From Dehalococcoidia bacterium (GTDB lineage: Bacteria; Chloroflexota; Dehalococcoidia; DSTF01; JACRBR01), in contig JBBDXD010000009.1 in assembly GCA_040902535.1 (NCBI GenBank), positions 62,001-126,000 on the forward strand: a DNA stretch of 64,000 nt. Direction: 5' to 3'. The translations under genes were made by a program, and so were the position numbers. Under the pieces are notes generated by a model. It was not told the DNA's origin. It worked only from the letters and a program-made list of their open reading frames with translations, and ran no database searches. Each line of letters starts with the position of its first letter. Position 1 is the stretch's first letter. Shown one piece after another: positions 25,022-37,941 of this stretch.

Positions 25022-26065
25022 CTAGGCGAGCTGACGCAGCAAGCGCAGGTCGTTCTGGTACCAGTAGCGGATGTCATCGACCCCGTAGAGTTGCATCGCC
25101 AGGCGCTCAACGCCCATCCCGGCCGCAAAGCCCGTGTACTTCTGCGAGTCGATGCCCATATTCTCCAGGATCTCCGGATGCACCATGCCCGCGCCGAGCA
25201 TCTCGATCCAGCCGGTCTGGTGGCAGGTCTGGCAACCGGCGCCCGCGCACGCGAAGCAGTCCATCAGCACCTGCGCGCCGGGTTCGACGAACGGGAAGTA
25301 CGTCGCGACCAGCCGGATCCGGCGTTCGCCCCCGAACAAGCGGCGAAACAGCTCGAGCAGCGTCCCCTTCAGATGCGTCATCGAAAGCCCTTCGTCGACG
25401 GCGAGGACCTCGACCTGCGTCATCTGCCACTCATGCGTCGTGTCCGTCTGCTCGTAGCGATACGCGCGGCCCGGGACCGCGATGCGGATCGGCGGCTTGT
25501 ACTGCTCCATGAAGCGGATTTGCGCCGGCGACGTATGCGTGCGGAGCAGCATCGGCCGGTGGCCGTTGACCTGCTCGTCTACCCACATGGTGTCCCACAT
25601 ATCGCGCGCCGGATGATCTGCCGGGATGCGCAGCGCGTCGAAATTGTAGAACTCGAGCTCAACCTCAGGCCCTTCGACGATCGAGAAGCCCATCGAGCGG
25701 AAGGCATCGCTGATGCGCCGCACGAGCTGCGTGACCGGATGCAGGCCGCCCTTCGGGCGCGGCCGCGCCGGCAACGTCACGTCGATCGTGCCGGTTTCGA
25801 GCGATGCGGCGAGCTGCACAGTCCGAATCTCCTCGGACCGCGCCGCGAAGCGCCCTTCCAGTTCGTCCTTGAGCGCATTGGCGGCGGCGCCGATCTGCTT
25901 TCGCTCGTCGATCGAAAGTTCCGCGAGTCTACGCAGCACGCCGGTGAGCCGCCCCTTCCGCCCGAGGTACTCGATCCGCCACGCGTCGAGCGCGGCGAGA
26001 TCAAAAGCGATGGCGAGCGACGAAAGCGCATCGTCGCGGAGCTGCTGGACGGTCTCGGCCGGCAT
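25022..26065 (-). CDS. pheS: Phenylalanyl-tRNA synthetase alpha subunit
   Basis: 347 residues from the ATG at 26063-26065, chosen because GGGGAGG precedes it. An upstream ATG at 26096-26098 has a weaker site. The N-terminal coiled coil (about 1-90) is followed by the class II core: GLHPVTQLVRRISDAF, motif 2 around RAYRYEQTDTTHEWQMTQVE and motif 3 GFAAGMGVERLAMQLYGVDD. A CFACAGAGCQTC cluster provides four cysteines of a likely zinc site, seen in many bacterial PheS. It forms an operon with pheT. Confidence 0.95.
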   Translation of the reverse strand: MPAETVQQLRDDALSSLAIAFDLAALDAWRIEYLGRKGRLTGVLRRLAELSIDERKQIGAAANALKDELEGRFAARSEEIRTVQLAASLETGTIDVTLPARPRPKGGLHPVTQLVRRISDAFRSMGFSIVEGPEVELEFYNFDALRIPADHPARDMWDTMWVDEQVNGHRPMLLRTHTSPAQIRFMEQYKPPIRIAVPGRAYRYEQTDTTHEWQMTQVEVLAVDEGLSMTHLKGTLLELFRRLFGGERRIRLVATYFPFVEPGAQVLMDCFACAGAGCQTCHQTGWIEMLGAGMVHPEILENMGIDSQKYTGFAAGMGVERLAMQLYGVDDIRYWYQNDLRLLRQLA

Positions 26066-26303
26066 GGGCCTCCCCTGCAGGTTGGTGATGCGCGGCATTA
26101 TAGGCGCCGTCCGTTGAAAGCGCGAAGCGGGCCCGTGGGTGCGCGGAGGGGAGCCTGGCGGCCTGCGGGCGCATGTCCGAGATGCCTTGGAGCGCGGGCA
26201 GACGGCCAACGCTGCAACCTTGAGACCAACTGGCGCACGCGTACGACGGAGGAGGAGCGCCCAACCGGCCTTAACGCTCTCCCCAAAAGTCACGGCCGCA
26301 GAG

Positions 26304-26888
26304 TTATTGCAGGTTGACGATCGTGTCGAGGTGCGCGCCGCCCGGCATCGTGCGCTTGATCGTCAGGTATGCACCACTGGGAGGCCGCACTTCGATCAGG
26401 AACTTGCGCCCGCTGGCCAGCGGCGGGTAAATCGAAGAAACGTCGATCAGGACCGCCGCCAGCTCGCCCGTCTCGAGCAGATGGTCGCCGTCCCCGACGG
26501 TCCAGGTGACGGTGTACGGCAACTCGCGTATCGCGTTCGCCTCGTCGATAAAGCTGACTACCGTGCGGTCCAGCGGCGCCAGGGGATCGAGATTCACCCC
26601 GTCATCGCCGCCGATCGCGAGCGCGACGTCGATCGAGATGGCGTTCGCTTCCTGCCCGTCGGTGATGGCGACCACAGGGCCGCGGATCTCCAGGCCGTTT
26701 ACGGAGCGCGAGAGCGCATCGTTGAGCGTCCGCTCGACCTGCCCGCTGCTGGTGAGGCCCGTCGTCAGGACCACACCGCCGAAGGCCGACCCGACGACCA
26801 GAAATCCCGACGTGATGAGGATCATCTCGAGCGCCGAGACACCAGACTGGCTTTTGAGGAGGCGGAGACCACGTCGTATACGGCTCAT
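26304..26888 (-). CDS. Archaellin-like protein (archaeal flagellin/type IV pilin fold)
   Basis: 194 residues from the ATG at 26886-26888. The basic leader MSRIRRGLRLLKSQSG ends at Gly16. The predicted cleavage is before VSALE, with Glu at +5, followed by an unbroken hydrophobic helix to about residue 45: a class III (type IV pilin) signal. The body matches archaellins in order: TTGLTSSGQVERTLNDALSR, LEIRGPVVAI, a strand region with NAISIDVALAIGG, then LLETGELAAVLIDV and FLIEVRPPSGAYLTIKRTMP. No arl/fla motor genes lie beside it. It is divergent from gcvT. No strong ribosome-binding site is seen, so the start is uncertain; an ATG at 26961-26963 is an alternative. Confidence 0.8.
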   Translation of the reverse strand: MSRIRRGLRLLKSQSGVSALEMILITSGFLVVGSAFGGVVLTTGLTSSGQVERTLNDALSRSVNGLEIRGPVVAITDGQEANAISIDVALAIGGDDGVNLDPLAPLDRTVVSFIDEANAIRELPYTVTWTVGDGDHLLETGELAAVLIDVSSIYPPLASGRKFLIEVRPPSGAYLTIKRTMPGGAHLDTIVNLQ

Positions 26889-27109
26889 ACAGAAGCCAAC
26901 GGAGGGATCGCCGCGCCCGTTGCCGGCTGCTTGACGCGGGCGCGTCAAGTAACGAGGTGGCATGAAGGCTCACCGGCGGCCCGGCGGCGACCTGCCCGAA
27001 ACCCTGCGGGCCTGCTCCTGCTGCGCGCGAAACGGTCCTCCGCGACCGATCGGCGAACGACCGGCAGCCTCAGATCATAAGAATCCTCCGACGTACGGAC
27101 GCGTCTCGA

Positions 27110-27115
27110 TACAAT
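27110..27115 (+). promoter_or_regulatory. TACAAT -10-like box before gcvT
   Basis: TACAAT lies 11 bases before the gcvT start codon. The same hexamer occurs close to the starts of lemA (7744), alaS (49474) and the MFS gene (60138), which suggests very short leaders. No clear -35 could be paired with it. Confidence 0.35.
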
Positions 27116-27126
27116 GACTCCGCGAC

Positions 27127-28260
27127 ATGTCCGAATCCCAGACCTCCGCTCTTCGAAAAACTGCCCTCTTCGACCTGCACGAGCGGCAGGGAGCGCGCAT
27201 CGTCCCGTTTTCCGGCTGGGCGATGCCTGTCCAGTACAGGGGCATCGTCGAGGAGCATCACGCAGTGCGACGGCGCGCGGGCGTATTCGACGTGTCGCAC
27301 ATGGGCCGGCTCTTCGCCGTCGGCTCGGACGCGGCGCGGCTGCTTCGGCGCGCCGTGACGTACGACGTGACGAAGCTGCCGGAGGGGCGCGGCCATTACA
27401 CGCTTCTCTGCACGCCCGAAGGCGGCATCATCGACGATCCCTACGTCTATCGCCTCGATGCGCAGCGGTTCCTCGTCGTCGGCAACGCCGCCAACGCTGA
27501 GCACGACGCGACGCACGTCGCCTCGCTCGTCGCGAACGGCATGGATGTCGAATTGCTCGACCGGCAGGAGCAGACGGTGATGCTGGCGGTGCAGGGGCCA
27601 GCGGCGAGCGGTTATCTCTCGCGGGTCATCGGACCGGAAGTGGCGGCGATGGAGAAGCGCGCGTGTACGGAGCTGCCGTTCATGCAGTACAAGCTCTTCG
27701 TGTCGCGCACCGGCTACACGGGTGAAGACGGTTTCGAACTGGTCACGTCTCCCGAAGCGGGGCGGGCACTCTGGCGACAACTGCTCGCGGAGGGCGTGGA
27801 GCCATGCGGGCTCGGCGCGCGTGACACGCTGCGGCTCGAAGCCGCGCTGCCGCTCTGGGGCAACGACATCGACACGACGACGAATCCCTACGAGGCGGGA
27901 CTCGGATGGCTCGTGAGCCTGCGTGACGGCGCGGACTTCATCGGGCGGGGCGCGCTCGAACAGATCAAGCGGGATGGCGTCACGCAGAGGCTATCGCACC
28001 TCCGCGCGAACGGCCGCGGCGTGATCCGGGACACGTATCCGGTGATGAAGGACCGCAAGCAAGTGGCGATCGTCGCGAGCGGCGGCTTTTCGCCGACGCT
28101 GGGCGTGAGCATCGCGATGGCGTACCTCCCGCTCGACCTGACTCCCGAAGGCACCACGCTCGACATCGACGTGCGCGGTCGCATGGTGCCGGTCGAAGTC
28201 GTGCCGCGGCCGTTCATCGGCGGTTCGGCGAAGGCCAGGAAGACGAAGGGCGCCGCATAA
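27127..28260 (+). CDS. gcvT: Glycine cleavage system T protein (aminomethyltransferase)
   Basis: 377 residues. LRKTALFDLHERQGARIVPF, the VFDVSHMGR segment, SRTGYTGEDGFEL and GARDTLRLEAALPLWGND are the standard GcvT folate-binding motifs. The C-terminal barrel includes GGFSPTLGVSIAMAYLP. It transfers the aminomethyl group from lipoyl-GcvH to tetrahydrofolate, releasing ammonia. It is the first gene of gcvT-H-PA-PB, separated from gcvH by a palindromic repeat array. Confidence 0.95.
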   Translation: MSESQTSALRKTALFDLHERQGARIVPFSGWAMPVQYRGIVEEHHAVRRRAGVFDVSHMGRLFAVGSDAARLLRRAVTYDVTKLPEGRGHYTLLCTPEGGIIDDPYVYRLDAQRFLVVGNAANAEHDATHVASLVANGMDVELLDRQEQTVMLAVQGPAASGYLSRVIGPEVAAMEKRACTELPFMQYKLFVSRTGYTGEDGFELVTSPEAGRALWRQLLAEGVEPCGLGARDTLRLEAALPLWGNDIDTTTNPYEAGLGWLVSLRDGADFIGRGALEQIKRDGVTQRLSHLRANGRGVIRDTYPVMKDRKQVAIVASGGFSPTLGVSIAMAYLPLDLTPEGTTLDIDVRGRMVPVEVVPRPFIGGSAKARKTKGAA

Positions 28261-37206: not shown

Positions 37207-37941
37207 TCAGATCTCGACGAACGCCGCGCCTTGCGTCAGCAAAATAAACATCGCGCCCGCCGCGATGAATGGCGCGTACGGGATCGGGTCGCGTCGATCG
37301 CGGATGCGGGTGACCAGCAGGATCACGGCGATGACGCCGCCGCCGATCGCGGTCAGGAGCAGCGCGCTGATACCAAACGAGAGACCCAGCCCGAAACCCG
37401 TGAAAAACGCAAGCTTCACATCGCCCATGCCCATGCCGCCGCGCGTCAGAATCGACATCAGCAGGAACGTACCACCGACGAGCGCACCGCCGACAAGCAC
37501 GTTGGCACGATTGGCGTCCGGCATCACCAGACCTATGGTGACCGCGGCGATGATCGCCGGATACGTCACGACATTGGGCACCCGGTAGGCGAGCAAGTCC
37601 GTCCCGGTGCAGACGATCAGCACGGCAGCGTACGCCGCGACGATCGCCACGTGCAGGGGCTCCGACTCGTACTGGTGGCCGGCGAGCGCGAATAGGAGCG
37701 CGGTGACGCCGACGACGATCGTCCGGCGATACATCGATGCTGACGTAAGTGCGCGCGGCATCGCCAGGGCGCCCGCCTCGCTGCCGAGTGCGAGACGATG
37801 CGGTGATTCTTCGTCCAGCGGCGATTCGTCGTCTTCGTCGGCGTCGGCACGCTCGTATGGCTCGCGCGACAGGCGCGCGATCGCCTCATCGAGCCCAAAG
37901 CCCGCAAGCACGCCCACGATCGCCATGATCATTACGGTCAC
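37207..37941 (-). CDS. A24-family prepilin peptidase without the cysteine methylase motif
   Basis: 244 residues. The catalytic aspartates lie in TGTDLLAYRVPNVVTYP (about 113) and GGMGMGDVKLAF (about 173), surrounded by about six membrane helices. PilD-type enzymes carry an N-terminal CxxC...CxxC methyltransferase region; here it is replaced by an acidic, probably disordered loop (YERADADEDDESPLDEESPH). It should cleave type IV pilin or archaellin signal peptides. It lies 19 bases upstream of larA and about 10 kb from the archaellin-like gene. Confidence 0.87.
   Translation of the reverse strand: MTVMIMAIVGVLAGFGLDEAIARLSREPYERADADEDDESPLDEESPHRLALGSEAGALAMPRALTSASMYRRTIVVGVTALLFALAGHQYESEPLHVAIVAAYAAVLIVCTGTDLLAYRVPNVVTYPAIIAAVTIGLVMPDANRANVLVGGALVGGTFLLMSILTRGGMGMGDVKLAFFTGFGLGLSFGISALLLTAIGGGVIAVILLVTRIRDRRDPIPYAPFIAAGAMFILLTQGAAFVEI

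Follow-up and report, generated by a model that had tools for sequence, protein, structure and literature searches.

A 64,000-nucleotide stretch of a Dehalococcoidia assembly, here called the window, contains between pheST and gcvT a minus-strand gene for an archaellin-like protein, hereafter the stray archaellin (Table 1). Its open reading frame is intact and extends over 194 residues from an ATG at 26888 to a stop codon at 26304; this start is supported by the MSR... start conserved in two relatives. The third-position GC content of the gene was 0.81, like that of the neighboring genes. A consensus scan of the region detected no sigma-70-like site and one terminator-like site, which was within chance expectation, and no Rfam family was found in 25500-27700.

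The stray archaellin matched Pfam Arch_flagellin (PF01917) over residues 25-178 with 44.8 bits (E 2.2e-11; curated cut-off, 29.5 bits), and three relatives of the protein scored 48.0-51.3 bits. In the Pfam scan at E<=1, Arch_flagellin was the sole family above the cut-off, and the matches included no model for TadE, Flp, or PilA. A bacterial pilin identity was therefore rejected, in agreement with an earlier note on this DNA that had placed the protein with archaellins and not with TadE- or PilA-type pilins. A PDB search with a profile of the stray archaellin and its three relatives returned the filament protein 9i5h (E 2.5e-23, residues 17-182), followed by the methanogen flagellin 7txi. We take 9i5h to be ArlB of Litorilinea aerophila, a Chloroflexota archaellin, because its chain starts with ITALETAII, which fits Ile29, the first residue of the published structure, and was solved as an 86-chain filament. 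The Arch_flagellin score and the full-length alignment to a solved archaellin exclude a chance match. The alignment places GDGDHLLETGEL at the position of the metal site of L. aerophila ArlB, which consists of D121, D127, E131, and E134 (PMC12488501). An AlphaFold model made from four input sequences had a pLDDT of 34 and a pTM of 0.29, too low to interpret; homology to 9i5h supports the prediction of a beta-sandwich archaellin head.

Table 1. Positions in the window of the stray archaellin gene, its parts, and the prepilin peptidase gene
Feature	Position	Strand	Basis
Stand-alone divergent archaellin paralog, 194 aa, intact ORF with stop	26304..26888	-	ORF, Arch_flagellin, 9i5h alignment
Class III-type leader MSRIRRGLRLLKSQSG, predicted to be cleaved after Gly16	26841..26888	-	Sequence; four-member alignment
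N-terminal polymerization helix region, mature residues 1-50, diverged	26691..26840	-	34% identity to class consensus
C-terminal archaellin head domain	26307..26690	-	40% mean identity to family shaft archaellins; aligned to 9i5h
LEIRGPVVAI block	26664..26693	-	Alignment; GPV common to 4/4 orphan-clade members
GDGDHLLETGEL, at position of published metal site	26460..26495	-	Alignment with 9i5h
LIEVRPPSGAYLTIKRTMP block, counterpart of shaft archaellins' FTLEVKPPSGSYLVISRTTP	26343..26399	-	Alignment
Prepilin peptidase (Peptidase_A24)	37207..37941	-	Sole one found in genome

The N-terminus reads MSRIRRGLRLLKSQSG, followed after the expected cleavage site by VSALE, and thus comprises a basic leader, Gly at -1, Glu at +5, and then a hydrophobic helix. 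These features, as well as the LEIRGPVVAI and LIEVRPPSGAYLTIKRTMP blocks, are all present as the earlier note had described them. Its class III signal holds at the level of residues, G16 and E21 being invariant in all four orphan proteins (the stray archaellin and its three relatives), but not at the level of models: the class III signal model PF04021 gave 11.0 bits, below its cut-off of 23.7, and the NCBIfam archaellin N-terminal model TIGR02537 gave no match even at E 10. On these two results the N-terminus is atypical. TIGR02537 is, however, no strict criterion for an archaellin, since an arlB product of the same genome (L010:488-1198) also falls under the cut-off with 14.4 bits. A gene for an A24 prepilin peptidase lies about 10 kb away in the same window, and its product is presumed to be the processing enzyme because no other prepilin peptidase was found in the genome.

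The genome, a Chloroflexota (Dehalococcoidia) assembly, carries a set of archaellum genes, and its close relatives are also Chloroflexota/Dehalococcoidia assemblies. The earlier note's statement that some Chloroflexota have archaella agrees with the literature: for Chloroflexota archaella, which Dehalococcoidia also have, both a structure at 2.7 A and motility data are published (PMC12488501). In a whole-assembly search, six further Arch_flagellin matches were found, all on contig C14. Four consecutive arlB genes and an ArlG-like gene occupy 40.6-45.1 kb of this contig, in the order four arlB, CDE-like, ArlG-like, ArlF-like, ArlJ, and amidase genes; the CDE-like gene was named by its position and its conserved place in relatives. 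A fifth arlB (G000:C14:1363-1983(-), L008) lies off the main cluster near the contig end, beside ftsH. Contig C18 carries adjacent genes for ArlH and ArlI, the latter scoring 629 bits with the NCBIfam archaellum ATPase model, above its equivalog cut-off of 550. The genome-wide search for arl genes thus bore out the suggestion that the motor of the stray archaellin, encoded on contig C9, is located elsewhere, and the alternative that the archaellin fold is used without a motor is not needed to account for the locus. Since the fifth arlB also lies apart, co-location with the archaellum genes is no strict criterion for an ArlB.

Several other features of the archaellum genes and their surroundings were recorded. 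The genes are split between G000:C14:40.5-48.7 kb (L010) and arlH-arlI at G000:C18:162.5-165.1 kb (L055); arlHI lies outside the examined arl loci in G001, G002, G004, and G006 as well, and close by in G003. The fifth arlB has a matching clade with a normal helix in G001, G002, G004, G006, and G007. In several family genomes, arlJ is followed by a gene of unknown function and one for an N-acetylmuramoyl-L-alanine amidase (L010:7254-8678(+) for the two), and the amidase is a candidate for the passage of the archaellum through peptidoglycan. Besides ArlI, four more T2SSE-family ATPases were above the cut-off in the genome. Two Flp-like pilin candidates (G000:C9:47143-47605(-), outside the window) had 29.7 and 27.6 bits, below the Pfam cut-off of 32.2. 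An NCBIfam RimP match of 19.2 bits (cut-off, 150) was discarded as noise.

The stray archaellin and its three relatives, all from one other genus of the same family, form a clade with a support of 100/99 (99/99 in a reduced sequence set), which was found in 4 of the 393 genomes of the class. With a profile of these orphan proteins, the four members scored 307-343 bits, whereas no other archaellin of the 393 genomes exceeded 173 bits. The members share GPV, P-x-(I/L)-A-(A/S)-G, and, near the C-terminal end, P-(G/A)-G-x-x-L. Orthology of the stray archaellin with the other three is probable from these sequences but not proven, because the branches are long and a tree with the stray archaellin outside the clade had an AU p of 0.055. 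A recent duplication from the genome's own arlB set was rejected as the origin of the gene (AU p 7e-06). A scan of genome contigs yielded only the three relatives, and viral contigs scanned with an archaellin alignment gave no match.

The orphan gene is intact in all four genomes, which, like the others in this analysis, are assemblies of uncultured organisms. Between G006 and G007, dN and dS were 0.047 and 0.18 by NG86 and 0.041 and 0.51 by YN00, respectively; dN/dS is thus well below 1, indicating purifying selection for function, at least in this pair. Within the class sample, orphan genes occur only in genomes that also have archaella. The gene is absent from G001 (97% complete) and G003 (96%), two archaellum-bearing lineages within the family, and is therefore not essential for an archaellum; its absence from G002 and G005 is weak evidence, as their completeness is low.

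The position of the gene differs between the genera. The earlier note had stated that it stands alone beside gcvT, which is correct for this genome. In the other genus, the orphan gene is located 3' to the gene for a secreted peptidase, and in G006 the distance to arlJ is about 9 kb. The gcvT-H-P order is conserved in relatives without an adjoining pheS or archaellin gene. The gcvT neighborhood is thus peculiar to this genome and uninformative, and a functional gcvT/pheS neighborhood was dropped as a candidate. A search of this genome for an archaellin remnant at the position used by the other genus revealed none. No platform genes are linked to the stray gene or lie beside the orphan genes of the relatives, and a search with one pattern detected no sigma-28-like site upstream of the orphan genes or the arlB genes. 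A 22-base element, GTTGATCTNNGTGANCCCCGCC, occurs just upstream of the three relatives' orphan genes (L101:5961-5982, L102:5961-5982, and L103:5963-5984) and was not found in the window with up to three mismatches allowed.

The helix and the head of the protein have diverged to different degrees. Helix identity to the class consensus was compared across 51 archaellins from this and other families of the class; it was 34-42% in the four orphans and 63-98% in the other 47, with a gap between the two ranges. The shaft archaellins of the family share, on average, 88% identity among themselves in mature residues 1-50 and 54% in the head; the corresponding means for the stray archaellin against these proteins were 32% and 40%. 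The head value is of the order of the shaft archaellins' own. The orphan proteins retain the Gly/Glu processing site, a GVVL..G hinge stretch, and a GDGDxLLExGEL-type metal motif, and the metal and processing residues are invariant across all four. As judged from these alignments, the changed part of the stray archaellin is the helix, which all other archaellins of the class conserve best; the earlier note had missed this change. Its 34% identity to the consensus, compared with 63-98% in the others, led us not to class it as a shaft ArlB.

Chloroflexota archaella, multiple archaellins, and stand-alone archaellins in archaea are already known (for the last, PMC4858521). Neither the archaellins of this bacterium nor a stand-alone gene is therefore new, both kinds having been published; going by sequence, the unusual feature is the protein itself, with its typical head and altered polymerization helix. 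Our literature search found no Chloroflexota archaellin paralog that is encoded outside the archaellum genes and has a replaced polymerization helix. The stray archaellin, whose residues 17-182 align with 9i5h, resembles L. aerophila ArlB in its predicted head, metal motif, and Gly/Glu class III site; it differs in that its gene stands alone and in lacking the ETAIILIAFVVVA..FAF...SERGKE helix pattern, which is found in L. aerophila ArlB and other archaellins. The stand-alone archaellins of archaea likewise have the archaellin gene and the machinery in separate loci, but they are described as duplications, and the available portion of that report (PMC4858521) mentions no divergence of the helix. 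For several archaea, it has been proposed that minor archaellins form the base of the filament or a structure at its end (PMC8821640). Among these, ArlB3 of Methanococcus and Methanocaldococcus is comparable as a paralog of the major archaellins with a proposed base or terminal location (PMC8821640), although the genes for such minor archaellins of archaea usually belong to the arl operon, whereas the stray archaellin is bacterial and encoded away from the archaellum genes.

We tentatively propose, with somewhat less than even confidence, that the stray archaellin is a minor archaellin, a diverged ArlB paralog that may be placed at the base of the filament, in a hook-like position, or at its tip. 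Its leader would be cut after Gly16, presumably by the A24 peptidase, and the processed protein would be inserted by the ArlI/ArlJ platform, the genes for which are on other contigs, so as to sit at one of these two ends instead of all along the shaft. Export by the archaellum route is suggested by the retained processing site and the presence of platform genes. A special end position is suggested because the head is, by sequence, that of a standard archaellin but the helix no longer matches the invariant shaft helix; as the shaft core is built of these N-terminal helices (PMC12488501), the change speaks against a shaft position. On the other side, the same divergence would be just as compatible with another filament, or with none at all. 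Even in archaea, little is understood of what minor archaellins do, and a base or tip protein of bacterial archaella would, if the proposal is true, show how a machine acquired from archaea is refitted to the bacterial envelope. The combination of a normal archaellin head and a shaft-incompatible helix in one protein would then make it a sharp test case.

Alternatively, the stray archaellin could belong to the shaft after all, in place of or mixed with the other archaellins, and serve in certain conditions to stabilize or change the filament. Comparable cases are the strongly divergent FlaB1/FlaB2 pair of Halorubrum and ArlB1/ArlB2 of Methanocaldococcus villosus, which alternate. Both co-assembly of divergent archaellins and filaments made by one of them alone are known (PMC7349177, PMC8821640), and the head, metal motif, and processing site are all retained; however, the helix that packs the core is at least 63% conserved in the 47 other archaellins and 34-42% in the orphans, and we consider such a role unlikely.

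It is quite unlikely that the protein does not polymerize and is instead held in the membrane by its helix, with an envelope, stator-accessory, or adhesive function. ArlF and ArlG provide the model, being published as neofunctionalized ArlB duplicates that have lost the class III signal (PMC13319060), and a second, membrane-anchored archaellin-head-like family in six family genomes suggests that the lineage undergoes conversions of this kind. The stray archaellin would share with ArlF and ArlG an origin from ArlB through duplication and change of function (PMC13319060), but differs from them in retaining the Gly and Glu, which are invariant in the four orphans.

Assembly of the protein into a separate filament or pseudopilus without a motor, on another type IV platform such as a Tad-type one, would be compatible with the gene lying outside the arl locus, with a helix differing from that of shaft archaellins, and with the four additional T2SSE-family ATPases and the two sub-cut-off Flp-like candidates on the same contig. 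The lack of a linked platform gene here or adjoining one in the relatives and the restriction of the orphan gene to genomes with archaella make this assignment quite unlikely. More broadly, we are doubtful, and think it improbable, that the archaea-derived archaellin fold has been recruited again for a separate surface protein or non-motile appendage that has an assembly helix of its own and does not depend on the archaellum motor. A functionless duplicate in decay, which the long branch, the presence in only part of the family, and the varying position between genera might suggest, is very unlikely given the intact gene in four genomes, the invariant metal and processing residues, and the G006-G007 dN/dS.

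The anchored archaellin-head-like proteins are about 160-170 aa long, with an N-terminal membrane anchor and a WLxGNGDxxxDxGE motif and without a class III site. They are encoded in this genome at G000:C22:259972-260478(+) (L056:6973-7479) and in the relatives at L083, L084, L085, L086, and L087, downstream of yebC and the gene at the ruvC position in 5 of the 6 genomes. The protein of this genome scored 15.8 bits against Arch_flagellin, below the cut-off. Together with the orphans, these proteins suggest that archaellin diversification continued after transfer to bacteria. Separately, an archaellin-like head following a lipoprotein-type signal (MILSSAAC) is split over two frames at G003:C5:146851-147430(-) (L082); the cause may be a sequencing error or gene breakage, or the two parts may be separate open reading frames.
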